A stretch of 64,000 nt of DNA, taken from contig CP047423.1 of NCBI GenBank assembly GCA_014058405.1, positions 1,054,001 through 1,118,000 of the forward strand, in the 5' to 3' direction. This DNA is from Candidatus Nitrospira kreftii (GTDB lineage: Bacteria; Nitrospirota; Nitrospiria; Nitrospirales; Nitrospiraceae). Within the stretch, counting starts at the first letter, position 1; the number at the start of each line of letters is the position of its first letter. Both the position numbers and the translations under genes were made by a program. The notes under the pieces are model-generated. The model had not been told where the DNA came from, did not search any database, and saw only the letters and a list, made by a program, of their open reading frames with translations. Shown here piece by piece: positions 2,207 to 63,419 of the stretch.

Positions 2207-3005
2207 ATGCCTAAAATCGTCTCACAGGAAGACTGCAGAAAAGTACGAGACCTTCCTTTCTGCTACCTCTGCGGAAAACCATTTGATGGCAGCGGCGAGA
2301 CCAATGATGACCATGTGCCGCCTCAGTCAATTTTTGCGCCAGCCGATCGGAATTTCCCTATCAAATTAAAAGCGCATAAAGTCAAGTGTCATGCTCCCCT
2401 AAACTTAGACGATGAAATCATAGGGCAGCTTATAGCTTTGCGCCATGGAAAGAAACCATCCGAGTCAAACAATCGGATGAAGAATTACTATCGACGAAAA
2501 TCTAGAAATCGGGAGAAGTATGGGGCTATTCAGAGAGCGGAATATCGAATTTCTCCTTCGGCGATGGATCCAAGGATTTCACGCGGCACTCTATAAATCG
2601 TATTTGCCTGCTACCGTTCGATGGGCGATTCAGGGACCTTTCCCTTCCGCGAAGATAACAGAACAAGGCCTTGTTCCCGATCAGATCAGAGAGCAACACT
2701 ATGAATTCGTAACCTGTATCAAGAAAAATCGCCTCGCAGGTAATATCGACCGCCTTGTTACTAACAACGGAAAGCTCATATACGAGTGTGTTTGGGATAA
2801 GTTGAGCGACGGGACGGCATGCTGCGTGTTTGCGTTAGATCTGTATGGGTGGGCGGATCTTGGTGACGTTAATAACTTTCCTCGGCGAGGATGTGCCGGG
2901 CTATATTCCCACCTGAACCAGGCAGTCCCAGAAGATGCGGCGCGGGCAACCAACCTTGTATTCGAAATAGAGCAAAGTGAGCGCGCAGATCCATTCGTAA
3001 TGTAA
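2207..3005 (+). pseudogene. HNH endonuclease gene broken by a frameshift
   Basis: The first frame (2207-2596) starts with a zinc-knuckle-like CYLCGKPF followed by NDDHVPPQSIFAP, which is the usual look of an HNH endonuclease: Cys-x2-Cys, then Asp-His at the metal site. After KYGAIQ the reading continues sensibly only in another frame (2520-3005, ...IEFLLRRWIQGFHAALYK...), which carries a Trp/Arg-rich segment and the natural C-terminus. The two frames overlap, so a single-base insertion or two-base deletion near 2520-2550 splits one gene of about 265 codons. The 3' half is also overlapped on the other strand by read-through of the truncated methyltransferase copy. A sequencing error cannot be excluded. 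Confidence 0.6.
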
Positions 3006-3655
3006 CCACCTCGCCTTGATCTGGTTCGAGCTCGCCCAAAGGGTAATCCCTGGATAATCCCGATGCAGATAGCGTGGGCGACGAACCGGCCGTAGGTTGC
3101 GTCCTTGCATTCATTCCAATCAGACTCCACCCAATAGTTCCGCGTTGAGATCCGCTTGAGAAAGTGCTGTGTGGTGAAAGGGCTCTTGCCGTCACGGAGC
3201 AGTCCGTCAAAAAACTCGTTATGCCCAATTGGCAAGCTCACCACAATCTGTCCGCCGGGGGCGAGGCATCGGTTCCGGAGGTGCGCGATGGCCTGTAGAA
3301 GCTTGTCTGGCTCACGCGGTACTTCATCCCAACCCACGTGTTCCAGGGTCGAAATGCTGAGGATCACATCGTATCGCGCTGTCGGCGCAAACTCGACGAT
3401 ATCCTGATTGAGTACTCCTGGCGCGACCTCGTACTTATCGGCCACGTCGTGGTGGATTGGGACATAGTGCGAGAGTACGTTGCCAACCTCAAGAATCCGC
3501 GCGGTCTGATGGCGAAGCAGGATGTCTCGGAAGATCGGGATTTCGACGCCACGCTCGTTTTTCCATGTCTTGTTGCAAAAGTGATAGAGGTACGAGCAGA
3601 GTTGGGGTCGGATCTTGCTTTGTGTATCACGAATGCAAGTCTTCTCTTCTGGCAC
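2699..3655 (-). pseudogene. Truncated, read-through copy of the SAM-dependent methyltransferase at 4489-5175
   Basis: Residues equivalent to 46-228 of the intact methyltransferase are encoded at 3044-3596 with no indels (constant offset of 1445 bases) and high identity. The first ~45 residues are missing and are replaced by an unrelated read-in (MPEEKTCIRD...). The stop codon TAA of the intact gene is TTA here, so the frame runs on for about 115 meaningless residues, antisense to the HNH gene, to 2699. Motif I (ARILEVGN) and the LSISTLEHVGWDE segment are kept. With no proper N-terminus and a junk tail, it is best regarded as a degraded duplicate, although a folded core could still be made. 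Confidence 0.75.
3044..3596 (-). repeat. 553-bp direct repeat, copy 1 (partial methyltransferase)
   Basis: This block aligns base for base with 4489-5041, without gaps, in the same orientation. The two copies flank the PIN toxin-antitoxin pair at 3685-4345. Similarity stops abruptly at both ends: at the stop codon position on one side and inside codon ~46 on the other. Scattered substitutions show that the duplication is not very recent. Confidence 0.85.
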
Positions 3656-4488: not shown

Positions 4489-5041
4489 TTATCCCTGGAT
4501 GGTTCCGATCACGATAGCATATGCGACGAATCGTCCATAGGTTGCGTCCTTGCACCCATTCCAATCCGACTCCACCCAATAGTTCCGCGTTGAGATCCGC
4601 TTGAGAAAGTGCTGCTGCGTAAAGGGGCTCTTGCCGTCACGGAGCAGTCCGTCAAAAAAATCGTTATACCCAATTGGCAAGCTGACCATGATCTGTCCGT
4701 CTGGGGCAAGGCATCGGTCTCGGAGGTGCTCGATGGCCTGTAGGAGCTTGGCTGGCTTGCGTGGTACTTCATCCCAACCCACGTGCTCCAGAGTTGAGAT
4801 GCTCAGGATGAGGTCATAGCGTGCTGTCGGCGCAAACTCGACGATATCCTGATTGATGACTCCCGGCGCGACTTCATACTTATCGACCACGTCGTGGTGG
4901 ATTGGGACATAGTGCGAGAGTACGTTGCCGACCTCAAGAATGCGCGCGGTCTGATGGCGAAGCAGGATGTCTCGGAAGATCGGGATTTCGACGCCGCGCT
5001 CGTTTTTCCATGTCTTGTTGCAAAAGTGATAGAGGTACGAG
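4489..5041 (-). repeat. 553-bp direct repeat, copy 2 (inside the intact methyltransferase gene)
   Basis: This is the parental copy of the block seen again at 3044-3596. It runs from codon ~46 to the stop codon of the intact methyltransferase gene. See the finding on toxin-antitoxin modules bracketed by partial duplicates. Confidence 0.85.
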
Positions 5042-5175
5042 TAGGTGCGCCCGTTGAAAGCAAAGGTGTTGGCCCTCGTCCAGCGGGTCAGTGTCATTTT
5101 GGCGAAGCGCCAATAGCGCCTTAAAGCACTTTCGTCGCCGGTCTCGGCGCGGGTGTAATCGTACGTGTAGGGCAT
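4489..5175 (-). CDS. SAM-dependent methyltransferase (class I)
   Basis: A 228-residue protein with a class I methyltransferase core. The glycine-containing SAM loop is ARILEVGNVLSHY (about residues 74-86), followed by an acidic turn and the LILSISTLEHVGWDE segment (about 121-135), and then GGQ/DGQIMVSLPIG. The N-terminus (MPYTYDYTRAETGD...RRYWRFAK) is basic and aromatic. The substrate cannot be told; such stand-alone enzymes often sit in glycan or surface-polymer clusters. It follows a small gene (5187-5441) by 11 bases on the same strand, so the two probably form an operon. Residues 46-228 are duplicated as a damaged copy at 3044-3596. Confidence 0.8.
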   Translation of the reverse strand: MPYTYDYTRAETGDESALRRYWRFAKMTLTRWTRANTFAFNGRTYSYLYHFCNKTWKNERGVEIPIFRDILLRHQTARILEVGNVLSHYVPIHHDVVDKYEVAPGVINQDIVEFAPTARYDLILSISTLEHVGWDEVPRKPAKLLQAIEHLRDRCLAPDGQIMVSLPIGYNDFFDGLLRDGKSPFTQQHFLKRISTRNYWVESDWNGCKDATYGRFVAYAIVIGTIQG

Positions 5176-7054: not shown

Positions 7055-9109
7055 GTGAGTGACTCAGCGATTATCACGTTTTCCCTCATAGCCGCCGTGG
7101 CAGGTATTGGCTATGGGTTGTACCTTGCGATGTGGGTGTTCAAGCTCGATGCCGGCAATGCAAAGATGCAAGAAATTGCAAAGGCCATTCAAGAAGGTGC
7201 CAGTGCCTACATGAATCGACAGTATAAAACCGTCGGCTATGTGGCCGCGGTGCTCTTTGTCATTCTCTGGGGCGCTGGGGCCGTTTCCGATAAGTTTGGC
7301 TTGCTCACGGCGGTCGGATTTTTGGTCGGCGCGGGAGCCTCATCGATTGCCGGCTATGTGGGGATGATCATCGCCGTGCGCGCCAACGTGCGGACCGCGC
7401 AAGCCGCGCACAGTGGCATGAATGCCGCCTTGACCGTCGCGTTTCGAGGGGGTGCGGTGACGGGTCTCTTGTTGATCGGTCTTGGACTTTTGTCGATTAC
7501 GACCTTCTATATGATTGCGCAATCAATCGCTGGGCAAGAAAAGGCCATTCATGCCTTGCTGAGCCTGGGATTTGGCGGCAGCTTGATCTCGGTGTTTGCC
7601 CGCGTTGGCGGCGGCATCTATACCAAGGCGGCGGATGTGGGTGCGGATCTGGTCGGTAAGGTCGAAGCGGGAATTCCAGAAGACGATCCGCGGAATCCCG
7701 CCGTCATCGCGGATAACGTGGGTGACAACGTCGGTGACTGTGCCGGCATGGCGGCGGACCTGTTCGAGACCTACGCGGTGACGACGGTCGCGGCCATGGT
7801 GCTGGCCTTTACGATGTTTAAGGGGGCGACTGCCCCAATTCTCTATCCGTTGGTCTTAGGAGGCCTGACGATTTTCGCGACGATCGTCGGGGTTCTATTC
7901 GTGAAAGTGAACCCGGGTGAGGAAGTCATGAGGGCGCTCTACAAAGGGTTGTTTGTGGCCGGCGGGATCGCTGCGGTGGCATTTTTACCGGTCACCCTCA
8001 TGATCATGGGCGGGGTAGGGGGCGTCAGCGGATTCAGCTACTACCTCGCAGCATTGATAGGATTGGCGGTGACGCTGGCGCTTGTGTTCATCACCGATTA
8101 TTACACGTCGAAGAACTATGAACCGGTGCAATATATCGCCAAAGCAAGCGAAACCGGCCATGCGACGAACATCATCGCGGGGCTGGCGGTCGGCATGCAA
8201 GCGACAGCGGCGCCGGTGGTGGTGATTGCCATGGCTATTCTCGGCAGTTATTGGGTCTGCGGCGGCGCGGAGTCTGGTGGGTTGTACGGTGTGGCCGTCG
8301 CGGCAGTGTCGATGCTCTCAATGGCCGGGATTGTCGTGGCGATCGATGCGTTTGGACCGATCACGGACAACGCCGGTGGTATCGCCGAAATGTCGCATTT
8401 GGGTAAGGAAGTGCGGGACATCACTGATCCGTTGGATGCGGTTGGTAATACGACGAAGGCCGTGACGAAAGGCTATGCGATTGGGTCGGCCGCATTGGCG
8501 GCGGTGGTGTTGTTCGCGGAATATTCTCGCGAGGTGGCGGCGCACAATCCCGCGCTGGCGGCGTTCGACCTGTCCAACCCGAAAGTGTTGGTCGGTCTGT
8601 TCCTGGGTGGCATGTTACCCTTCATCTTCGGCGCGCTTTGCATGAGGGCCGTGGGTGAAGCCGGTGGCTTGATCGTGGAAGAAGTGCGGCGGCAGTTCCG
8701 GACCATCAAGGGCATTATGGAAGGTACAGGGAAGCCGGAGTATGGCACCTGCGTCGACATTGTGACCCAAGCGGCCATTCAAAAGATGATGATCCCAGGC
8801 TTGATTCCGGTGGTGTCGCCGATTTTGGTGGGCGTGATCCTCGGTCCGCAAGCGCTTGGCGGCGTGCTGGTCGGCAGCATCGTAACCGGGTTATTCGTGG
8901 CGATTTCGATGACGAGCGGCGGTGGAGCCTGGGACAATGCGAAGAAGTTTATCGAAGAGCAGGGGTTGAAGGGCACCGACACACACAAGGCGGCAGTCAC
9001 CGGTGATACGGTCGGCGATCCGTACAAGGATACGGCGGGACCGGCGGTGAATCCGATGATCAAGGTCATCAATATCGTCGCGCTGCTCATCGTGTCGTTG
9101 ATCGTCTAA
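7055..9109 (+). CDS. hppA: Membrane-bound proton-translocating pyrophosphatase, K+-independent type
   Basis: A 684-residue integral membrane enzyme that couples hydrolysis of pyrophosphate to ion pumping, with about 16 hydrophobic helices. The catalytic cytoplasmic motifs are clear: [25 protein letters not shown], then [19 protein letters not shown], and near the C-terminus [21 protein letters not shown]. At the potassium-determining site the sequence is GNTTK (residues 464-468), with Lys where K+-dependent enzymes have Ala. By the established rule this makes it a K+-independent H+ pump. GTG at 7055 has a strong AGGAGG upstream. The gene stands alone, with a promoter at 6884 and a terminator at 9133. 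Confidence 0.95.
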
Positions 9110-9132: not shown

Positions 9133-9166
9133 GCGCCGTTTCCCACAGGGGAAACGGCGCTTGTCA
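9133..9166 (+). terminator. Rho-independent terminator of hppA
   Basis: A perfect 12-bp stem, GCGCCGTTTCCC (9133-9144) with GGGAAACGGCGC (9149-9160), and an ACAG loop are followed by TTGTCATTT. It lies 23 bases after the hppA stop codon and separates hppA from pup. Confidence 0.8.
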
Positions 9167-9180
9167 TTTCTGGCCTTGCC

Positions 9181-9210
9181 TTGACGGGTTTCCTTACCGT
9201 GGAGTATGGT
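9181..9210 (+). promoter_or_regulatory. Likely promoter of pup
   Basis: TTGACG at 9181-9186 and TATGGT at 9205-9210 are separated by 18 bases, between the hppA terminator and pup. This would give pup its own transcription start near 9217. Consensus match only. Confidence 0.4.
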
Positions 9211-9275
9211 GAACACATCATCCCAAGTTGCTGATTGACCGCGAGAGTTTCCCCAGATGTACGGGAGGTGCTCGA

Positions 9276-9473
9276 ATGGAAAAGCAGGAACGTAAGCAAG
9301 AGCCGCGACGCGAACCCCAAGGGAAGGAGGAGGTCAAGGCCAATCCCAAGGTCGTCGAGGCGGGTAAGAAAATGAAGGAAGACATCGACAAGCTGGTCGA
9401 TGAGATCGACGATGTCTTAGAAAAGAACGCCGAAGAATTCGTAAAGAATTACGTTCAGAAAGGGGGAGAATAG
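9276..9473 (+). CDS. pup: Prokaryotic ubiquitin-like protein Pup
   Basis: A 65-residue disordered, highly charged protein. Its C-terminal half, DEIDDVLEKNAEEFVKNYVQ then KGGE, is the hallmark of Pup: a coiled-coil-forming helix that binds the Mpa/ARC ATPase, followed by the Gly-Gly-Glu end that PafA joins to lysines of target proteins. The last residue is Glu, not Gln, so it needs no deamidation by Dop before use, as also known in corynebacteria. The N-terminus (MEKQERKQEPRREPQG) is the threading part. ATG at 9276 has GGGAGG 7 bases upstream; the in-frame GTG/TTG-type upstream starts lack this. Pup genes normally lie between dop and prcB, but here pup is about 48 kb from the proteasome operon, between hppA and recJ. 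Confidence 0.95.
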   Translation: MEKQERKQEPRREPQGKEEVKANPKVVEAGKKMKEDIDKLVDEIDDVLEKNAEEFVKNYVQKGGE

Positions 9474-9627
9474 CGCCGCTTCCATTTCTCCACTCTTACT
9501 CGATTCACGCTACGCCGCCTTCCCTCCTTGGTTTGACAAAGAAGAAGCGAGTTATTACAGTCTGCCTCGCTCCCCTGCAACACGTCGGTTCAACGTAGAC
9601 ACGGCCCAGGCCCCTAAGGAGGCGAAC

Positions 9628-11325
9628 ATGCAGCCCAAGCTCTGGGTCATTCGTCAAGTCGATCCCATCCAATGCGGCCGTTTATCCCAGGCCTTATCCA
9701 TCTCTTCCGCCACGGCTTCACTGCTTCTCAATCGTGGCGTCACGAGCTTGGACCAGGCAACCGCCTGGATGTCTCCTATTCACACTCATGATCCCTTCTT
9801 GATTCCTGATATGGAGCGCGCGGTTGACCGTCTGCATCACGCGATGCAACGGCGTGAGCAGGTCTGTTTTTACGGTGATTACGATGTGGATGGCATGTCC
9901 GCCACCAGCATTTACTTGTCATTCTTCCGCACACGTGGGGCTAACGTCAGGGCGTATGTGCCTCATCGCCTACGTGAGGGCTACGGGCTTAATGAGTCCG
10001 CTGTTCGGACCTTGGCGCGAGAAGGAGTATCTCTGTTGGTCACTTCTGACTGTGGTACCACATCGCACCACGAAATCAGCCTTGCCAACCAACTCGGCCT
10101 GGATGTGATCGTCACGGACCACCATCAAACGGATACGGACATGCCGCCGGCGTTAGCCGTCATGAATCCCCATCGGCAAGGGGCCAAGTACCCTTTTAAT
10201 GGGCTGTGTTCCGGTGGACTGGCCTATAAAGTTTCACAAGCCTATGAAGCGAAATACGGATCCGGCTCAGTGCCGTTGGAGTCGCTGTTGGATCTCGTCG
10301 CACTTGCCACCATTGCCGACGTCGTGCCGCTGCAGGACGAAAACCGTCTGTTTGTTCGGGAAGGCCTGGCTCACATCACACGAGGCGCACGCTGTGGCAT
10401 ACGGGCGTTGAAACACGTGGCTGGTGTCAATCGCGAGTGCACGGCGGAAACCGTCGCGTTTAAACTCGGCCCTCGACTCAATGCAGCAGGTCGGCTAGAT
10501 GAAGCTATCAAGGGCGTTAAGTTACTGACCACGGAATCTGAACGAGAAGCCAACGCGTTGGCTGAAGAACTTGACCGGTTGAATCAAGTGCGCCGTGAGC
10601 TTGAAGGCACGATCTTGGAAGAAGCGCTTGCTCAGGCAACGTCTCGAGAATTATCCGGTGGGATTGTCTTGTACGCGCGAGGGTGGCATCTAGGCGTGGT
10701 AGGAATCGTGGCTGCCCGTGTCATGGAGCGTTTCCATCGCCCGACCGTGGTGATCGCGGTCAATGAGGACGGCATTGGAAAAGGATCGGCGCGGACGGTG
10801 CCGGGGTTCGACCTGTACCAGGCCTTAGCGGGTTGTCGAGATCTGCTCGTCGCGTTTGGTGGGCACCCGAGTGCGGCCGGCGTGACCATCCAGGAATCGC
10901 AGTTACCCGCATTTTGCGAGCGGTTTTCCGCCATTGCAGAGAAGTGGATCCAAGACACTCAAAGCACTCCCATACTTCATGTCGACTCAGAAGTTCGGTT
11001 GAATGAGATTACACTCACGCTGCTTCGTGAAATCGGAACTTTGCATCCCTTCGGCGCAGGGAATCCTGAACCGACGTTTGTCGTCAAAGGGTTGAAGGTT
11101 ATCAATGCTCGAGTGGTCGGCGACAAGCATCTGAAGATGACGGTCCGGCAGGATGGGTCCTTGCCGTTTGACAGCATCGGGTTTGGGATGAAATCGCTCG
11201 AGGATCGTGGATTGTCTCCCGCCACCCCCATTGATGTGGCCTGCACACCGGAGCTGAACCATTGGAATGGCTATGACCGGATTCAGTTGCGCATCCGGGA
11301 CATACGAGCGACAGGGTGTGAGTAA
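9628..11325 (+). CDS. recJ: Single-stranded-DNA-specific exonuclease RecJ
   Basis: A 565-residue member of the DHH phosphoesterase superfamily that degrades single-stranded DNA 5' to 3' in recombinational and mismatch repair. The metal motifs are visible: DYDVDG (about residue 85), SDCGT, TDHHQTD (about 164) and the DHHA1-domain motif GGHPSAAG (about 410), then an OB-fold-like C-terminal region (FGAGNPEP...). The length is normal. ATG at 9628 has AAGGAGG upstream. The rel gene starts 6 bases after the stop codon, so the two are probably co-transcribed. Confidence 0.95.
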   Translation: MQPKLWVIRQVDPIQCGRLSQALSISSATASLLLNRGVTSLDQATAWMSPIHTHDPFLIPDMERAVDRLHHAMQRREQVCFYGDYDVDGMSATSIYLSFFRTRGANVRAYVPHRLREGYGLNESAVRTLAREGVSLLVTSDCGTTSHHEISLANQLGLDVIVTDHHQTDTDMPPALAVMNPHRQGAKYPFNGLCSGGLAYKVSQAYEAKYGSGSVPLESLLDLVALATIADVVPLQDENRLFVREGLAHITRGARCGIRALKHVAGVNRECTAETVAFKLGPRLNAAGRLDEAIKGVKLLTTESEREANALAEELDRLNQVRRELEGTILEEALAQATSRELSGGIVLYARGWHLGVVGIVAARVMERFHRPTVVIAVNEDGIGKGSARTVPGFDLYQALAGCRDLLVAFGGHPSAAGVTIQESQLPAFCERFSAIAEKWIQDTQSTPILHVDSEVRLNEITLTLLREIGTLHPFGAGNPEPTFVVKGLKVINARVVGDKHLKMTVRQDGSLPFDSIGFGMKSLEDRGLSPATPIDVACTPELNHWNGYDRIQLRIRDIRATGCE

Positions 11326-11331
11326 CGGACG

Positions 11332-13509
11332 ATGTACGAAACCGTGACGGATATCGATCAATTGCTGACGCGTCTGCAAGCCTACCAGCCGGAGGCGGAC
11401 CTGGGGATGGTGCGAAAAGCGTACGAGTTTTCGGTAAAGGCACATGAGGGCCAAACGCGACGATCCGGAGAACCTTACGTGAAGCATCCCGTCGCTGTGG
11501 CCGGTGTGTTGACGTCTCTCAAAACCGATGTCACCGCGATCGTGGCCGGACTGCTTCACGATACGCTGGAAGATACGGTCGCGACGACCGATGAGCTTCA
11601 GCGGGAGTTCGGCAAAGAAGTCGTTCATCTCGTCGATGGTGTGACCAAGATCGGGAAAATCACGTTTCGCAGTTCGGAAGAACGGCAGGCTGAAAATTTC
11701 AGAAAAATGGTGCTGTCGATGGCCGATGACATCCGTGTGGTCATCATCAAGCTGGCCGACCGACTCCACAATATGCGCACGCTGGAACATCTCAAAGAGA
11801 GTAAACGGCACGAAATCGCGAAGGAGACGTTGGAGATCTATGCGCCCTTGGCGAATCGTATCGGTATCGGGTGGGTGAAAAACGAATTGGAAGATTTGTG
11901 TTTGAAGCACCTGAACCCGGACGTCTACGAGACCTTGCGGGTGCGTGTGGCAAAGCGCGATGAGGATCGACAGCAGTACATTCAGGAGGTGCAAACGCTT
12001 GTCGAAAAAGCTCTGGCGGAAAATGGTTTAGTTGGTGCCGTCTATGGGAGACCGAAACATCTCTATGGCATCTATCAAAAGATGAAGAAACAATCGATCT
12101 CGTTCGAAGAGGTGTACGATCTCACGGCGTTGCGGATTATTACTGATACGAAGATGAACTGTTATGCCTTGCTCGGCGTCATCCATTCGCTATGGCGCCC
12201 GCTGCCCGGACGTTTCAAGGACTACATCGCCATTCCGAAATCCAATCTCTATCAATCGCTGCATACCACCGTCGTCGGGCCGAAAGGCGAGCACGTGGAA
12301 TTTCAGATTCGTACGGAGGAAATGCATCGTGTCGCTGAATACGGCATCGCAGCTCATTGGAAATATAAAGAGCAGGGGCGTGTGCAGGATAAGGACAGCA
12401 AGGCATTCGGATGGCTGAGACAATTCATCGAATGGCAACAGGATCTCCCGGACAATCGCCAGTTTATGGATTCCGTGAAGCTTGAGCTGTTCCATGACGT
12501 TGTCTACGTCTTTACCCCAAAAGGGACCGTGAAAGAACTGCCTAAAGGGGCGACGCCGGTTGATTTTGCGTATGCGATTCACACGGAAGTGGGTGACCAC
12601 TGCGTGGGTGCGAAGGTCAACGGGAAGATCGTTCCGTTGAGGCATGAAGTGTCCAGCGGCGATACCATAGAAATTTTGACTTCGCCAAACCAAACTCCGC
12701 ACAAGGACTGGTTGAAGTTCGTGCGAACGTCACGAGCGAAGACGAAGATCAAGCACTGGATTAAGGCAGAGGAACAGAAGCGAAGTCTTGAAATCGGGAG
12801 ACGTCTGCTCGAAGCAGAGCTCCGTCGCCATGGATTGGCTCCTTCGCAGGTATTGAAGTCGGATGCGCTGCTCGAACTGGCCAAGCAGGAAGGCTATGCG
12901 ACGATTGACGATCTCGCTGTCGCCGTGGGATTCGGCCATATTGCGACCGCTCAGATCGTCGGGCGGTTGATGACTCCGGCAACGGAAAGAAGCGCGCCCC
13001 CTTCCGAGTCTGGTCTTGTTCCGAAAGTTGCCGGCGAGAGAGGGGTGGAGGCGAGTATTCAGGTCAAAGGAGGACGTGACCTCCTGATGCAACTCTCGCG
13101 GTGTTGTAACCCTGTTCCAGGAGACAAGATTTTGGGATACATCACGCGTGGGAGAGGGCTCACGATCCATTCCGTCGAGTGTCCCAACTTAGGCGCGTTG
13201 GATTATGATCGAGCTCGTCTCGTCGAGGTCGAATGGGATACGGCTACACCCGGTCAACATGCCGTGAACATCGCCGTCATTGCTGAAGATAAAACCGGAG
13301 TGTTGGCGAATGTCTCTTCGGCGATCGCCGGATCTGACGCGAATATCAGCCGTGCTGAGATTACGACGAGAGAAGATCGGAAGGCTGAGTTACATTTCGT
13401 GGTAGAGATTGCCGACACGAATCACCTCAATCGAGTGCTGAAGGCAATCGAACGTGTGGAAGGCATCATAACAGCTCGGCGTCTGAGGTCCTGGCGAGGG
13501 AAACCCTAG
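11332..13509 (+). CDS. rel: Bifunctional (p)ppGpp synthetase/hydrolase (Rel/SpoT family)
   Basis: A 725-residue long RSH enzyme that makes and degrades the stringent-response alarmone (p)ppGpp. The hydrolase HD domain is intact, with the HDTLEDT motif near residue 70. The synthetase domain shows KSNLYQSLHTTVVGPKG and EFQIRTEEMH (about 300-330). A TGS domain (VYVFTPKG...LPKGATPVDFAY, about 385-445) and a C-terminal ACT domain (about 645-720) follow. With both catalytic domains intact it should be bifunctional and is probably the only long RSH. It follows recJ by 6 bases, and its stop codon faces the convergent DUF192 gene. Confidence 0.95.
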   Translation: MYETVTDIDQLLTRLQAYQPEADLGMVRKAYEFSVKAHEGQTRRSGEPYVKHPVAVAGVLTSLKTDVTAIVAGLLHDTLEDTVATTDELQREFGKEVVHLVDGVTKIGKITFRSSEERQAENFRKMVLSMADDIRVVIIKLADRLHNMRTLEHLKESKRHEIAKETLEIYAPLANRIGIGWVKNELEDLCLKHLNPDVYETLRVRVAKRDEDRQQYIQEVQTLVEKALAENGLVGAVYGRPKHLYGIYQKMKKQSISFEEVYDLTALRIITDTKMNCYALLGVIHSLWRPLPGRFKDYIAIPKSNLYQSLHTTVVGPKGEHVEFQIRTEEMHRVAEYGIAAHWKYKEQGRVQDKDSKAFGWLRQFIEWQQDLPDNRQFMDSVKLELFHDVVYVFTPKGTVKELPKGATPVDFAYAIHTEVGDHCVGAKVNGKIVPLRHEVSSGDTIEILTSPNQTPHKDWLKFVRTSRAKTKIKHWIKAEEQKRSLEIGRRLLEAELRRHGLAPSQVLKSDALLELAKQEGYATIDDLAVAVGFGHIATAQIVGRLMTPATERSAPPSESGLVPKVAGERGVEASIQVKGGRDLLMQLSRCCNPVPGDKILGYITRGRGLTIHSVECPNLGALDYDRARLVEVEWDTATPGQHAVNIAVIAEDKTGVLANVSSAIAGSDANISRAEITTREDRKAELHFVVEIADTNHLNRVLKAIERVEGIITARRLRSWRGKP

Positions 13510-57056: not shown

Positions 57057-57085
57057 TTGACCACCCCTAGGTCGAGTGTTAGAAT
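57057..57085 (+). promoter_or_regulatory. Likely promoter of the proteasome operon
   Basis: TTGACC (57057-57062) and TAGAAT (57080-57085) with a 17-base spacer, 61 bases before the mpa start codon. The best sigma-70-type match seen in the window. Confidence 0.55.
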
Positions 57086-57145: not shown

Positions 57146-58915
57146 ATGGCGGAAAGTAAAGGTCAGCCAAATCGACTCCGGTCTCTCCGAGATTCTGTCA
57201 AGAAGATTACGAAGCGGCTATCTGAGGGTGATGGAGAGATGATCCACAAGAACGACGAACACGCGCGGGAACTGGACAAACTTCGCGTTCAGATTCAGTC
57301 GATGGAAGAAGAGATCCGTCGACTGTATCAATCTCGGCACCAACTCGATCAAGCTAATAAGCAGAATGAAAAGCTTGTAGCGACGCTGCAGGAAGCGAAG
57401 GCTCAGATTGAGGCGCTACGGACCGAGGTCGAAAAACTGACGGCACCGCCGTCCGCCTATGCCATTTTTTCAAGCATGAATGCGGACGGCACGGGAAATG
57501 TCTACGTGTCCGGACGGAAGATGAAGGTCAGCCTGCATCCCTCAATCAGGCCGACAGAGTTGCGTAAAGGACGAGAAGTTGTCCTCAATGAAGCGCTCAA
57601 TGTGATTGAGGTAAAGGGATTTGATAGCCAAGGAGAAGTTGTTCGGCTCAAAGACGTGCTGGAGGGAGGACGAGCTCTCGTCACACTCCATTTTGATGAG
57701 GAGAAAGTGGCTGAGTTGGGTGATCCACTGCTGACGGAACGGCTGAGCGTAGGGGATCATCTTTTGTACGACTCTCGATCAGGTTATGTGATTGAGAAGC
57801 TGCCGAAGTCCGAAGCGTCAGAGCTCGTGTTAGAAGAAGTTCCGGATGTCGACTATGAGCATATCGGCGGTCTCCAAAAAGAATTAGACCAAGTGCGTGA
57901 TGCTGTCGAACTCCCATTTTTACATCCACAGGTTTTTTCCGAGTATAAGCTCAGTGCTCCAAAGGGTGTCCTGCTTTATGGTCCGCCCGGCTGTGGGAAG
58001 ACACTGATTGCGAAAGCCGTGGCCAACTCGATCGCTAAGAAATTGGGCCATCGAGCGGGTAAGGAAATTCGCAGTTACTTTCTGCACGTCAAAGGCCCGG
58101 AGCTCCTGAATAAATATGTGGGCGAATCAGAACGGCAGGTGCGAGAGGTCTTCAAAAAAGCTAAGGAACGAGCCGATGATGGCCATCCGGTCATCGTCTT
58201 TTTCGACGAAATGGACGCACTTTTTCGGACCCGTGGGACGGGGGTGTCATCGGACATTGAGTCTACAATCGTTCCTCAATTCCTTTCGGAGATCGACGGG
58301 GTGGAACGTTTACGCAATGTCATCGTCATCGGAGCGAGCAATCGCCAGGATCTGATCGATCCGGCCGTGCTTCGTGCGGGTCGATTGGACGTCAAAGTGA
58401 AGGTGGGAAGACCGGATGCCACGGCCGCTCGAGATATTTTCTCAAAATATATCTCCACGGATCTTCCGTTCGCCCAGGAGGATATAGAACGTCACGGAGG
58501 GGATCGCCAGGCACTCGTAGATCGCTTGACCGCCCTGACGGTCGAAACGATGTACGCGGCTAGCGAGGAAAATAAGTTCATTGAAGTGACGTATGCCAAT
58601 GGTGAAAAGGAAGTCTTGTATTTCAAAGACTTTGCCAGTGGGGCATTGATCGAGGGGATCGTCTCACGAGCGAAGAAGTTTGCCGTGAAGCGCGTAATCG
58701 CGCATGAAGGTTCAGGCCTGCATTCGGATGACTTGATACGGGCCATTCGTGAAGAGTTCAAGGAACACGAGGACCTTCCGAATACGACCAATCCAGACGA
58801 TTGGGCAAAAGTTGCTGGGAAGAAGGGCGAAAAAATCGTTCATCTTCGGACCATCAGCGGTGGACCGACAGAGCATCGGCAAATTGAAACCATCAGTACT
58901 GGCCACTATCTCTAG
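57146..58915 (+). CDS. mpa: Proteasome-activating AAA ATPase Mpa/ARC
   Basis: A 589-residue hexameric AAA ring that unfolds pupylated proteins and feeds them to the 20S proteasome. N-terminal coiled coil (about residues 36-100) for Pup binding; OB domains (AYAIFSSMNADGTGNVYVSGRKMKV, LVTLHFDEEKVAELG); AAA core with Walker A GPPGCGKT (about 280), Walker B IVFFDEMDALF (about 350) and arginine residues in NRQDLIDPAVLRAGRLD. The C-terminus ends GHYL, comparable to the GQYL tail by which actinobacterial Mpa docks on the proteasome. First gene of the operon; dop starts 8 bases after it. Confidence 0.95.
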   Translation: MAESKGQPNRLRSLRDSVKKITKRLSEGDGEMIHKNDEHARELDKLRVQIQSMEEEIRRLYQSRHQLDQANKQNEKLVATLQEAKAQIEALRTEVEKLTAPPSAYAIFSSMNADGTGNVYVSGRKMKVSLHPSIRPTELRKGREVVLNEALNVIEVKGFDSQGEVVRLKDVLEGGRALVTLHFDEEKVAELGDPLLTERLSVGDHLLYDSRSGYVIEKLPKSEASELVLEEVPDVDYEHIGGLQKELDQVRDAVELPFLHPQVFSEYKLSAPKGVLLYGPPGCGKTLIAKAVANSIAKKLGHRAGKEIRSYFLHVKGPELLNKYVGESERQVREVFKKAKERADDGHPVIVFFDEMDALFRTRGTGVSSDIESTIVPQFLSEIDGVERLRNVIVIGASNRQDLIDPAVLRAGRLDVKVKVGRPDATAARDIFSKYISTDLPFAQEDIERHGGDRQALVDRLTALTVETMYAASEENKFIEVTYANGEKEVLYFKDFASGALIEGIVSRAKKFAVKRVIAHEGSGLHSDDLIRAIREEFKEHEDLPNTTNPDDWAKVAGKKGEKIVHLRTISGGPTEHRQIETISTGHYL

Positions 58916-58922
58916 CGATTGT

Positions 58923-60422
58923 ATGCAAGAACACACTCCCACGAATCGCGCACGGGTGCTGGGCACTGAAACCGAGTTTGGCATTGTGTCGAAAGATGCC
59001 ACCACTCTGGATCCTGTATCCGGCTCGTTTGCCGTGATCGGCCACTATCCTGGCTTGCCGGCGCCTAGTGCAATTTGGGATTACGAAAATGAAAATCCCC
59101 TCCTGGACGCGCGGGGCTTCGAAGTCAATGGTGAGCGAGAGCGTCCCAACCCAGACTATAACCGACAGCTGAATAAGGTGCTCGCGAACGGAGGGCGCTT
59201 GTACGTTGATGGAGCCCATCCAGAGTACTCGACGCCAGAATGTTCAAGTGCTCGAGAGGTTGTGGCGTTTGAGCGTGTCGGAGAAAGAATTCTCGCGAAA
59301 AGTCTCCAGGAGATGACTCGCGTACGGAGAAGCGAACAGTATCTCTTATACAAGAATAATTCAGACGGCAAAGGCAACAGCTATGGGTATCACGAAAACT
59401 ATCTGGTCTCGAGGGCTGTGTCGTTCGACAAAATTGCACGTGTATTGACACCATTCCTCGTGACTCGACCGATTTTTGCCGGAGCAGGAAAAGTCGGTGC
59501 GGAAAATCAGACCAGTCCGGCGGAATATCAGATTTCCCAGCGCGCCGACTTCTTTGAATGTCTCATGGATCTCAATACGATGGTCAAGCGTCCGATCATC
59601 AACACGCGAGATGAGCCCCATGCTGATTCGGCACGATTTCGAAGACTGCATGTCATCACGGGTGATGCCAATATGGCTGAGGTGTCTACCTATTTGAAGG
59701 TCGGAACCTTAGATGTTGTCTTGGATTTGCTCGAAAGCGGAGCCGAGGTGCCTCAGTTGGAACTCGATGAACCAGTTCGAGTGTTCAAGCAAGTGTCGCG
59801 TGACTTGGAGGTGAAGCAGACGGTGAAGTTGGCCGGCGGAAGGCCGACCACGGCGATTTCGGTCCAGCGGGCCTACCTGAAAGCGGCTCAGACTTTTTAC
59901 GCCGCTCACGGATGTCCCTCCACCATCCAAGATGTGCTGATCCGGTGGGACGGAGTGTTGAACAAGCTGGAGCGCGATCCGCGGCTACTGGTGAAGGAAT
60001 TAGATTGGGTGGCGAAACGCCATATGATCGAGTCCTACATGGATAGGAAAGGGTGTGGATGGGACGACTCGCGAATGAAACTGATGGACCTCCAATACCA
60101 TGATGTCCGCCCTGAGAAAGGGTTGTTTTATACGTTGGAGCGCGGGCACCTGATCGACCGAATTGTGGAGGAAGACGAGATTCAGCGGGCTGAACTCAAC
60201 CCTCCGATCGGCACACGGGCCTATTTTCGAGGGCGCTGTGTTCGGAAGTTCGCGAAGTCATTGTATGGAGCGAGTTGGACATCCGTCCTGTTCGATGCCG
60301 GCAATAACACCATCAAAAAAGTGCCGCTGATGGATCCGCATCGCGGTACGCAATCGTTGACACGAGAGCTGCTGGATACCGCAGATTCCATTGATGAGTT
60401 GCTTGAAAAGCTCAAGGTTTGA
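58923..60422 (+). CDS. dop: Depupylase (deamidase of Pup) Dop
   Basis: A 499-residue enzyme of the glutamine-synthetase-like Pup ligase family that cleaves Pup from proteins. It is told from PafA by the early region TETEFGIVSKD...WDYENENPLLDARGFEV, absent in PafA. Nucleotide and catalytic parts: LYVDGAHPEYSTPEC, LYKNNSDGKGNSYGYHENY, INTRDEPHAD and RLHVITGDANMAEVSTYLKVG. As this organism's Pup ends in Glu, the deamidase step should not be needed. ATG 58923 was chosen; the frame upstream lies inside mpa. Confidence 0.92.
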   Translation: MQEHTPTNRARVLGTETEFGIVSKDATTLDPVSGSFAVIGHYPGLPAPSAIWDYENENPLLDARGFEVNGERERPNPDYNRQLNKVLANGGRLYVDGAHPEYSTPECSSAREVVAFERVGERILAKSLQEMTRVRRSEQYLLYKNNSDGKGNSYGYHENYLVSRAVSFDKIARVLTPFLVTRPIFAGAGKVGAENQTSPAEYQISQRADFFECLMDLNTMVKRPIINTRDEPHADSARFRRLHVITGDANMAEVSTYLKVGTLDVVLDLLESGAEVPQLELDEPVRVFKQVSRDLEVKQTVKLAGGRPTTAISVQRAYLKAAQTFYAAHGCPSTIQDVLIRWDGVLNKLERDPRLLVKELDWVAKRHMIESYMDRKGCGWDDSRMKLMDLQYHDVRPEKGLFYTLERGHLIDRIVEEDEIQRAELNPPIGTRAYFRGRCVRKFAKSLYGASWTSVLFDAGNNTIKKVPLMDPHRGTQSLTRELLDTADSIDELLEKLKV

Positions 60423-60445
60423 GAGATGGTGGCTCTAAAATCACG

Positions 60446-61261
60446 ATGAAGCTGCCGTATCTTCCTAATCACGACGACTCCAGTTTTTTTGACTTTCTCA
60501 CCAAGCAGTATCCAGGATTGACGTTGGGTAGTCATGGCATGGCTCCGGCATCGGAGCCGATGCGAAGCGCTGGGCCGATAGCCGTGCCCTATGCGACGAC
60601 TGTCCTCGCGATCAAGTATCAAGATGGAGTCGTGATTGCCGGAGATCGTCGAGCGACAGAAGGATTTCAGATTGCCGATCGCCGTATCGAAAAGGTTTTC
60701 AAGATCGATGAATGGTCGGCGATGGCGATCGCTGGAGCGGCCGGGCCGTGCATCGAGATGGCCAAATTGTTTCAGACCGAACTGGAGCACTACGAGAAAC
60801 TGGAAGGTATAACGCTGTCATGCGAGGGGAAGGCCAATAAGCTTGGGCAGATGGTCAAGGCGAACCTCCCGATGGTGTTCCAGGGCTTGGTGGTCATGCC
60901 GCTGTACGTCGGGTATGACGTGACACGTGCCGAAGGGCGCATCTTCAAGTACGATATTACAGGTGGGAGATACGAAGAGTCCGACTACCATGCAATCGGT
61001 TCAGGCGGGAAAGATGCCCGCAATACGATGCGTGAGCATTTTCGGAAGAACCTTTCCGAGGCTGATGCACTCAATCTCGCCCTGTTATCGCTGTACAATG
61101 CAGCCGATGATGATGTCGGAACGGGTGGACCGGATCTCATTCGTGGAATTTACCCGACTGCCAAGTTTGTGACAGCCAAAGGTATCACCGATGTCGTCGA
61201 CGAGAAGCTGAAAGCGGTGTACGACGAGATGATGACCGCACGCCGTTCGAGGGAGGCGTAA
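60446..61261 (+). CDS. prcB: Proteasome beta subunit
   Basis: A 271-residue subunit carrying the proteolytic sites of the 20S core. It is made with a propeptide of about 50 residues; cutting before Thr51 in VPYATTVLAIKY exposes the catalytic Thr. GVVIAGDRRAT supplies conserved Asp and Arg of the site, and Lys is in IEKVFKIDEWSAMAIAGAAGP. The gene starts 23 bases after dop, where pup is usually found; no small frame fits there. prcA follows after 2 bases. Confidence 0.95.
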   Translation: MKLPYLPNHDDSSFFDFLTKQYPGLTLGSHGMAPASEPMRSAGPIAVPYATTVLAIKYQDGVVIAGDRRATEGFQIADRRIEKVFKIDEWSAMAIAGAAGPCIEMAKLFQTELEHYEKLEGITLSCEGKANKLGQMVKANLPMVFQGLVVMPLYVGYDVTRAEGRIFKYDITGGRYEESDYHAIGSGGKDARNTMREHFRKNLSEADALNLALLSLYNAADDDVGTGGPDLIRGIYPTAKFVTAKGITDVVDEKLKAVYDEMMTARRSREA

Positions 61262-61263
61262 TC

Positions 61264-61953
61264 ATGGTCATGCCCTATTACGTGTCCCCTGAGCAGATGA
61301 TGCAGGATAAAGCTGAGTATGCCAAGAAGGGGATTGCCAAAGGCCGTTCGATCATCGCGATGGAGTATGTCGACGGCATTCTGTTGACCGCGGATAATCC
61401 AAGTGCCTCGCTGCACAAAGTGTCGGAGATCTACGATAACATTGCGTTTGCCGGGGCCGGCAAGTATAGCGAATTTGAGAATCTTCGAAAGGCTGGAATC
61501 CGTCACGCCGATCTCAAAGGGTTCATGTACAGCCGTGAGGATGTCACAGGCCGTTCTCTGGCGAACGGCTACTCCCAAAGCCTCGGAACCGTATTCAGCC
61601 AGGAAATGAAGCCGCTTGAGGTGGAGATTCTGGTCGTACAGGCTGGTACCAACAACGGTTACCCGAACGAGATCTATCGTATATCGTTTGATGGCAGCAT
61701 CATTGATGAGAAAAATTTTGCGGTCATCGGGGGAAGAGCCGAAGCGGTGCAGACGATCTTGAAGGACAAAAGCTCCGGCCAATCTCCGTCGCTCGATGTC
61801 GCGTTGAAACTGTGTGTCACGGCACTGGAACAGACGGCAAATCAAAAGCTGCAACCCGAAGGCTTGGAAGTGGCGGTCTTGGACAGGACCCGTACCGGCC
61901 GAAAGTTCCGTCGTATCTCGGTGAGTGACATCAGACGAATCCTCTCTCCTTAG
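61264..61953 (+). CDS. prcA: Proteasome alpha subunit
   Basis: A 229-residue outer-ring subunit of the 20S proteasome that forms the gated entrance. It has the alpha start YYVSPEQMMQDKAEYAKKGIAKG, no catalytic Thr, and the family parts AMEYVDGILLTADNPS, NIAFAGAGKYSEFENLRKAG and ISFDGSIIDEKNFAVIGG. The C-terminus ends RRILSP. Directly behind prcB and surely co-translated. Confidence 0.95.
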   Translation: MVMPYYVSPEQMMQDKAEYAKKGIAKGRSIIAMEYVDGILLTADNPSASLHKVSEIYDNIAFAGAGKYSEFENLRKAGIRHADLKGFMYSREDVTGRSLANGYSQSLGTVFSQEMKPLEVEILVVQAGTNNGYPNEIYRISFDGSIIDEKNFAVIGGRAEAVQTILKDKSSGQSPSLDVALKLCVTALEQTANQKLQPEGLEVAVLDRTRTGRKFRRISVSDIRRILSP

Positions 61954-62042
61954 TCTTCATCTTCGTGAAGGCTCCCTTTGTTGCGGATCCGAGAACGGGC
62001 GTGTAACCTATCTCTAGGTCTTTCATGATGTCGTCGGGTCCC

Positions 62043-63419
62043 ATGAAACAACGAATATTCGGCCTCGAGAATGAGTACGGCCTTATTTTCTCTCCTAATG
62101 GCCGGATTTACCTTCCCATGGAAAAGGTTCTCGGGTACATCTTTGAGGGGCTGATTCCCAACAGCTGGCCATCGAATGCATTCTTGGTCAATGGGGCGCG
62201 ATTTTATCAGGATACCGGCTGTCACCCCGAATACTCGACTCCGGAATGCGACAACATTACTGACCTTGTGGTCCATGACAAGGCTGGAGAACGGCTATTG
62301 GAAGCCTGTTTGCCGGCGGCGGAGGAGCGGCTCCGCGAGGAAGGACTGTCCGGGGAGATCTATATTTTCAAGAACAACACGGACTCGCTGGGCAATACGT
62401 ATGGATGTCACGAGAACTTTCTCATGCGACGTGACGTCGATTTTTGGAAAGTCACCGAACAACTGATCCCGTTTTTTGTGACTCGCCAAGTCTTCAGCGG
62501 AGCGGGGAAAGTCCTGAAAGTGTCTGGAAAACCCCAGTACTTCATTTCGCAACGGGCTCAGCATATTCATGAAAAAACATCGTCCTCCACGACATCTTCC
62601 AGAAGCATCATCAATACGCGCGATGAACCCCATTCGGATGCTGAACGCTATCGACGACTCCACATCATCGTTGGGGATTCCAATATGTCTGAATACGCGA
62701 CCTACCTCAAGGTCGGGACAGCTGCGTTGGTCCTTTCGATGATCGAGGAAGGGTATACCGTGCATGGGATGGAGCTTGAAGACTCGGTGAAGGCCATCAG
62801 GGAGGTGTCACGCGATCCGACGTTGAAAAAAAAGGTCAAACTTGATGATGGTCGGCAAATGACTGCGATCGAAATTCAACGAGTCTACGTGAAGAGAGCT
62901 CGAGAATACTTGGCCCAAGAAGATCATGAATCGACCATGGATGATGTGTGCGACAAATGGGAAGCCGTCCTGCAGCAGTTGGAAGAGGATCCCATGCAGC
63001 TCACACATCAGATTGATTGGGTCACCAAGAAACATGTGATCCAATCGTACGTGGATAAGCGACATTGCGGTTGGGACGACCCACGCGTGTTCTTGTTGGA
63101 TTTACAGTACCATGATGTGAAGCGGACACGGGGCTTGTATTACTTGATGGAGTCTCGTGGGCTGATCGAACGGGTGGTAGAGGAAGAGACCGTCCAACGA
63201 GCGATGTCCACGCCGCCACAAACGACGAGGGCCAAGGTCCGTGGAGATTTTATCCGGTTTGCACGAGCCAAAAACCGGTCGTATACCGTGGACTGGACCT
63301 ATCTCAAGCTGAATGGGTATTGGGAAGAGACGATTCTCTGTATGGATCCTTTCAGTGCGGTGAATCGACGGGTTGAAGAATTAATCTCCCAGGTATCCGG
63401 AGGACGGTTCTACCGATGA
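62043..63419 (+). CDS. pafA: Pup-protein ligase PafA
   Basis: A 458-residue ligase that uses ATP to join the C-terminal Glu of Pup to lysine side chains. The opening MKQRIFGLENEYGLIFSPNG is short and PafA-like, lacking the WDYE..DARGF segment of Dop. Catalytic and nucleotide parts: FYQDTGCHPEYSTPEC (base Asp), FKNNTDSLGNTYGCHENF, INTRDEPHSD and LHIIVGDSNMSEYATYLK. ATG 62043 fits the family start; an in-frame ATG at 62025 is possible. The next gene overlaps its stop codon. Confidence 0.94.
   Translation: MKQRIFGLENEYGLIFSPNGRIYLPMEKVLGYIFEGLIPNSWPSNAFLVNGARFYQDTGCHPEYSTPECDNITDLVVHDKAGERLLEACLPAAEERLREEGLSGEIYIFKNNTDSLGNTYGCHENFLMRRDVDFWKVTEQLIPFFVTRQVFSGAGKVLKVSGKPQYFISQRAQHIHEKTSSSTTSSRSIINTRDEPHSDAERYRRLHIIVGDSNMSEYATYLKVGTAALVLSMIEEGYTVHGMELEDSVKAIREVSRDPTLKKKVKLDDGRQMTAIEIQRVYVKRAREYLAQEDHESTMDDVCDKWEAVLQQLEEDPMQLTHQIDWVTKKHVIQSYVDKRHCGWDDPRVFLLDLQYHDVKRTRGLYYLMESRGLIERVVEEETVQRAMSTPPQTTRAKVRGDFIRFARAKNRSYTVDWTYLKLNGYWEETILCMDPFSAVNRRVEELISQVSGGRFYR

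Follow-up and report, generated by a model that had tools for sequence, protein, structure and literature searches.

Pup, a tag of 50-90 residues, has been stated to be encoded invariably adjacent to the PafA gene (PMC2588565), and all pupylating organisms have been stated to share a rigidly conserved gene order (PMC3511204). In the Actinomycetota, pup was near dop, prcB or pafA in all 50 of the loci examined here, two of which have larger gaps. Variations on the system have been described elsewhere. In C. glutamicum, Pup ends in Glu and deamidation is not needed, yet dop is kept (PMC3511204). Leptospirillum ferrooxidans carries two loci, L1 and L2, and one of its tags lacks the GGE end (PMC3511204); this tag is probably UBact. 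The arrangement found in the order Nitrospirales is a clear exception to both published statements about gene order. A search of the open literature found no report of an unlinked pup, and a mention in the UBact paper (Lehmann et al. 2017) is possible. Each of the proteins is ordinary; the novelty is in the arrangement.

The window, which is the whole stretch of 64,000 nucleotides analysed here, corresponds to C1:1054001-1118000 of the one-contig genome of Candidatus Nitrospira kreftii (4,125,728 bases). It contains pup within the order hppA-pup-recJ-relA, with the following features:

7055-9109, plus strand: hppA, membrane pyrophosphatase (name taken from the original prediction), open reading frame, upstream neighbour of pup
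9133-9169, plus strand: terminator-like inverted repeat GCGCCGTTTCCC / GGGAAACGGCGC, 3' of hppA, with a T-poor tail
9181-9210, plus strand: predicted pup promoter, -35 TTGACG (9181-9186), 18-base spacer, -10 TATGGT (9205-9210)
9263-9268, plus strand: Shine-Dalgarno sequence GGGAGG, inside a nearly invariant GGGAGGTGCTCG block 5' of the start codon
9276-9473, plus strand: pup, 65 residues with a Gly-Gly-Glu end, identified by PF05639 and TIGR03687 matches, alignment and dN
9533-9561, plus strand: predicted recJ promoter, TTGACA (9533-9538), 17 bases, TACAGT (9556-9561)
9628-11325, plus strand: recJ, open reading frame, adjoining pup in most Nitrospirales loci
11332-13509, plus strand: relA/spoT, open reading frame, next to pup where recJ has been lost (L048, L050, L057, L059)

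The machinery lies downstream on the same strand, 49 kb away as measured from pup to dop. The operon mpa-dop-prcB-prcA-pafA spans 57146-63419, and all five products exceed the NCBIfam equivalog cut-offs:

57057-57085, plus strand: predicted mpa-operon promoter, TTGACC, 17 bases, TAGAAT
57146-58915, plus strand: mpa1, proteasomal ATPase, TIGR03689 at 734 bits (cut-off 505), C-terminus GHYL
58923-60422, plus strand: dop1, depupylase/deamidase, TIGR03688 at 539 bits (cut-off 492)
60423-60445, plus strand: empty pup slot, 23 bases from the dop stop to the prcB ATG; in sister families (L062-L069) pup occupies it
60446-61261, plus strand: prcB1, proteasome beta subunit, TIGR03690 at 297 bits (cut-off 192)
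61264-61953, plus strand: prcA1, proteasome alpha subunit, TIGR03691 at 304 bits (cut-off 139)
62025-63419, plus strand: pafA1, Pup ligase, TIGR03686 at 569 bits (cut-off 551)

The window set thus resembles the actinobacterial Pup-proteasome system in having the same six genes and families and an Mpa that ends in GxYx, but no gene fills the slot between dop and prcB, and the single pup gene stands 49 kb off with a promoter of its own. Since only 23 bases separate the dop stop from the prcB ATG, there is no room in the slot for pup or for a remnant of it. The five Pup-type enzymes and subunits are together, and pup is beside none of dop, prcB and pafA, as the original prediction had claimed when it described the gene as unlinked from its machinery. 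It is very likely that this sole Pup is the tag of the window operon, that its gene was relocated in the ancestor of the order, and that it now forms a one-gene unit with a sigma70-like promoter.

The identity of the gene is secure. The reading frame runs from an ATG at 9276 to a TAG at 9471-9473, and its 65 codons end in KNYVQKGGE. The product matches PF05639 at 77.5 bits (cut-off 27) in a Pfam profile search and TIGR03687, the only NCBIfam family that it matches, at 62 bits (cut-off 41.45); it does not match the UBact models NF033388 and PF20513. Its 65 residues and GGE end agree with a Pup of 50-90 residues ending in G-[EQ]. The earlier assignment as a true Pup is therefore well founded, but the suggestion that the gene is easily missed in annotation is doubtful, since the Pfam and NCBIfam models both match it far over cut-off. 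A longer frame beginning with TTG at 9228 was dismissed, because conservation in relatives begins at MEKQER. Across the phylum, the E, I-D, N-A, F-V, Q and G-G positions of Pup are invariant. Against fourteen relatives dN is 0.01-0.16, with synonymous sites at or near saturation, indicating strong purifying selection and hence a protein in use.

A second pup would have contradicted the original prediction, but the PF05639 profile search of the whole one-contig 4.13-Mb genome matched the off-locus gene and nothing else. It could still be argued that the window operon is served by a different tag, or by a pup concealed in its slot, the off-locus gene being a copy that has degenerated or been repurposed, given how unusual its position is relative to published gene orders (PMC2588565, PMC3511204). 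This is very improbable. In the window, dop and prcB are about 23 bases apart, and in the other loci mapped the distance is mostly about 20 to 140 bases, with no Pup match; the slot of L078, at about 400 bases, also lacks one. The off-locus gene, besides being the sole match in the genome, is under strong purifying selection and its relatives retain intact GGE or GGQ ends.

The genome contains four Dop/PafA homologues, two in the window operon and two at C1:3632953-3639670 (minus strand). The latter belong to a second complete locus, L032, with the order mpa2-dop2-UBact-prcB2-prcA2-pafA2. Its tag matches PF20513 and NF033388, occupies the slot, and at C1:3636128-3636253 is the sole PF20513 match of the genome. 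Nitrospira thus carries two parallel tag-proteasome systems, like Leptospirillum ferrooxidans, in which two complete loci also occur in one Nitrospirota genome; in Leptospirillum L1 (and here in L073/L170) pup is inside the operon, whereas in Nitrospirales it is outside. The original prediction had assumed that the off-locus Pup belongs to the window operon and had missed the second locus, whose presence meant that the machinery served by this Pup had to be tested.

Phylogeny, family cut-offs and the co-occurrence of tags and enzymes agree that Pup pairs with the type-1 enzymes of the window and not with the UBact-type machinery, so that the assumed pairing was right. In a joint tree, Dop and PafA of the window group with their Pup-linked counterparts from other Nitrospirota, Actinomycetota, Poribacteria and Myxococcota, while those of UBact type form separate clades (SH-aLRT 97); the trees of Dop and PafA are quick trees, with SH-aLRT values and no bootstrap. 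The window enzymes exceed the Pup-type NCBIfam cut-offs, which Dop2, PafA2 and Mpa2 do not reach. Both tags occur in 78 of 246 sampled Nitrospirota genomes, and 73 of the 78 have exactly four Dop/PafA homologues. Pup without a detected UBact is found in 36 of the 246, with exactly two homologues in 28 of those 36, and UBact alone in 7, with exactly two in 5; the genomes that depart from these counts are mostly drafts.

It is conceivable that the off-locus gene works for both systems, the UBact-type machinery charging Pup or sharing it. The coexistence of the systems in those 78 genomes would favour such sharing, as would the likeness of the two tag ends, Y-x-Q-[KR]-x-G-E. We regard it as improbable, since the 36 genomes with Pup and no detected UBact mostly have one enzyme pair, the two enzyme types fall in separate clades, and the GxYx tail of Mpa1 is absent from Mpa2. 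This docking motif, described for the C-terminus of Mpa (PMC6466877), is present as GHY[LFV] in all Mpa1 proteins examined. Its absence from the Mpa2 proteins raises the question of how Mpa2 is coupled to its own 20S core. The C-terminal pattern Y-x-Q-[KR]-x-G-[EQ] common to Pup (window:9449-9470) and UBact (L032:10128-10316) hints at distant homology or at convergent ligase recognition. The window locus itself is not the UBact locus, which is complete in the same genome but has its tag in the slot and its enzymes in clades of their own.

Because the window Pup ends in Glu, deamidation is unnecessary, and the earlier proposal that Dop acts only as a depupylase fits this protein. It does not describe the lineage. 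The terminal codon is GAA in the window and CAA, giving a GGQ end, in a congener (G027); GGQ ends occur in 10 of 63 distinct Nitrospirota genomes (70 loci before removal of duplicates), including G027 and several of family f2. Terminal Glu is not fixed, and since one base separates the two states within a genus, a purely depupylating Dop is an unsafe conclusion. The resemblance to the PupE-type pupylation of C. glutamicum, which likewise has a Glu end and a retained dop, is limited in other respects as well: the window genome has 20S subunits, its pup is not beside pafA, and its close relatives end in either E or Q.

The separation of pup from its machinery extends throughout the order. Among 77 Pup-bearing Nitrospirales genomes of two families, f1 and f2, pup is beside type-1 dop in none: the two genes are on the same contig in 34 (39 kb to 1.4 Mb apart) and on different contigs in 41, and dop is unlisted in 2. 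Drafts with pup and dop on different contigs make up about half of the unlinked genomes, and the flanking genes seen in them match those of complete genomes. The dop-prcB slot is without pup in 20 of 20 Nitrospirales dop loci, and in the loci mapped no Pup remnant was found in it. One such slot, in L078 (G202), holds about 400 bases of filler. According to gene maps, the new site reads hppA-pup-recJ-relA in f1; in f2 it is either pup-recJ-relA or pup-relA. The order hppA-pup-recJ, set beforehand as a check on the original prediction, holds throughout f1; hppA is 5' of pup in every f1 locus with sufficient flank and in some f2 loci. In four Nitrospirales loci (L048, L050, L057, L059) recJ is absent from the interval between pup and relA, so that pup adjoins relA.

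Many of the relatives are metagenome drafts, which might suggest that the separation is an artefact of assembly or binning. The chance of this is negligible, since the separation is seen in one-contig genomes (G000, G055, G081, G110, G141, G145, G147, G177, G187, G202, G208, G245) and the neighbours at the breakpoint are consistent throughout the order.

Related lineages reveal the older state of both sites. In nine genomes from sister families within the class, 147-238 bases separate pup from dop, and the full order mpa-dop-pup-prcB-prcA-pafA is present in those families (L062-L069) and in other Nitrospirota classes. G183, a seeming exception among the sister families, is due to a broken contig, and its pup lies next to prcB (L070, L071). 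Since recJ and relA are adjacent without pup in the sister families (5 of 5 found), this arrangement is taken to predate pup at the new site. In Nitrospirales, Dop1 and PafA1 are each monophyletic (SH-aLRT 100 and 99) and nested among pup-linked relatives, which argues for one relocation. The simplest account is that pup moved once, in the ancestor of Nitrospirales.

A second detachment is found in Methylomirabilota/Rokubacteria. Their pup genes (L149-L154, L156, L157 and others) have no proteasome genes in the fetched flank of up to 8 kb, and the same genomes carry mpa-dop-prcB-prcA-pafA with a pup-less slot on another contig (L195-L202, L209-L214). Further off-operon pup loci in this group (L148, L158, L179) have varied contexts. 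A common origin with the Nitrospirales event was considered and dismissed: Dop and PafA of Methylomirabilota group with Actinomycetota (SH-aLRT 95 and 99), and their pup neighbours differ from those in Nitrospirales and vary among themselves, dcd being present in L150 and absent from the others tested. The two detachments are therefore independent. The gene-order rule is thus broken throughout an order of nitrifying and related bacteria and, independently, in a second phylum, and searches for pup that depend on its neighbourhood would overlook the relocated gene. As a separate observation, a candidate-phyla bin (L160 in G257, Candidatus Sungbacteria) contains Pup together with five divergent PF03136 matches: one open frame of 1071 residues (C9) has two, and another two stand in tandem (C24). 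The bin may hold a novel arrangement, or a contig may have been mis-binned.

The predicted promoters of pup, recJ and the mpa operon are separate and conserved. In the 160 bases upstream of pup, TTGAC-N16..19-TANNNT occurs in 37 of 38 f1 loci and in 12 of 14 loci of the sister family f2, where shuffles predict 0.14 and 0.12 loci; many f1 loci are close relatives and not fully independent, but the f1 genera and f2 nevertheless agree. The upstream region has otherwise diverged, leaving, near -95, TTGACG (or TTGACC), 17-18 bases and TA(A/T)GGT or similar. The window contains the strict form once. These results bear out the claim that pup has its own promoter, and the start predicted near 9217 fits the conserved element at 9181-9210. 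The terminator that was proposed alongside it fares less well: the inverted repeat is present, but similar hairpins are confined to the nearest relatives, and a conserved terminator between hppA and pup was dismissed. A conserved hairpin hiding the ribosome-binding site was likewise dismissed. Single sequences fold in this region, but the alignment gives no support (consensus energy -0.5, with 7 of 100 column shuffles as low).

The pup element is distinct from those of its neighbour and of the machinery. TTGACA-N17-TANNAT precedes recJ in 35 of 35 f1 loci (expected 0.24), and a TTGACC-N17-TAGAAT-like element precedes mpa in 20 of 22 (expected 0.18). Co-transcription of pup with recJ-relA is unlikely, as recJ carries its own invariant promoter. 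Because pup and recJ have separate conserved promoters, pup is most likely a single-gene transcription unit, as far as promoter sequences can indicate. Inspection of the two alignments by eye revealed no regulatory element common to the pup and mpa promoters beyond TTGAC/TANNNT.

From these observations a working scheme can be drawn. Pup would have left the dop-prcB slot in the Nitrospirales ancestor for a site upstream of recJ-relA, and would have been kept there since. By analogy with the actinobacterial pathway, Pup, made already with its terminal Glu, could be ligated to lysines by PafA1 without prior deamidation and taken off again by Dop1, while Mpa1, attached to the 20S core by its GHYL tail, would feed tagged proteins in. 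The tag would act in trans, from a promoter different from that of the enzymes, and the UBact-type machinery, with its tag in place, would work in parallel. We infer that the pathway is active and, from the separate promoters, that tag and machinery are separately regulated.

The original prediction had proposed that the supply of the tag is set apart from that of the machinery. Separate conserved promoters show a separate start and agree with that proposal, but independent regulation is a deduction from the promoters, and a shared factor may exert common control over pup and the mpa operon. The relocation could thus have been neutral, gene order having drifted once, with no regulatory effect and with pup and the mpa operon still co-regulated. 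This is a substantial possibility, though not the one we favour. Both promoters are sigma70-like, the recJ-relA order is itself old, so that gene order here changes slowly, and the distance from pup to dop ranges from 39 kb to over 1 Mb with no apparent effect; against this stand the two separate detachments, in Nitrospirales and Methylomirabilota, and the differing conserved -35 and -10 sequences of the two promoters. More tentatively, and in our view rather doubtfully, detaching the tag gene may be an adaptive, recurrent solution that makes the tag level independent of the ligase, the depupylase and the proteasome. If so, the Pup and UBact pathways of Nitrospira would be separately adjustable in one cytoplasm. 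In any event, natural cases in which tag and machinery have separate promoters make it directly testable whether the level of Pup limits tagging.

Elsewhere in the window, two methyltransferase-like open reading frames at 2699-3655 and 4489-5175 (both minus strand), about 1.5 kb apart, are 91% identical over 183 residues. The frame at 2699-3655 has a divergent C-terminal extension, as though one copy were broken.
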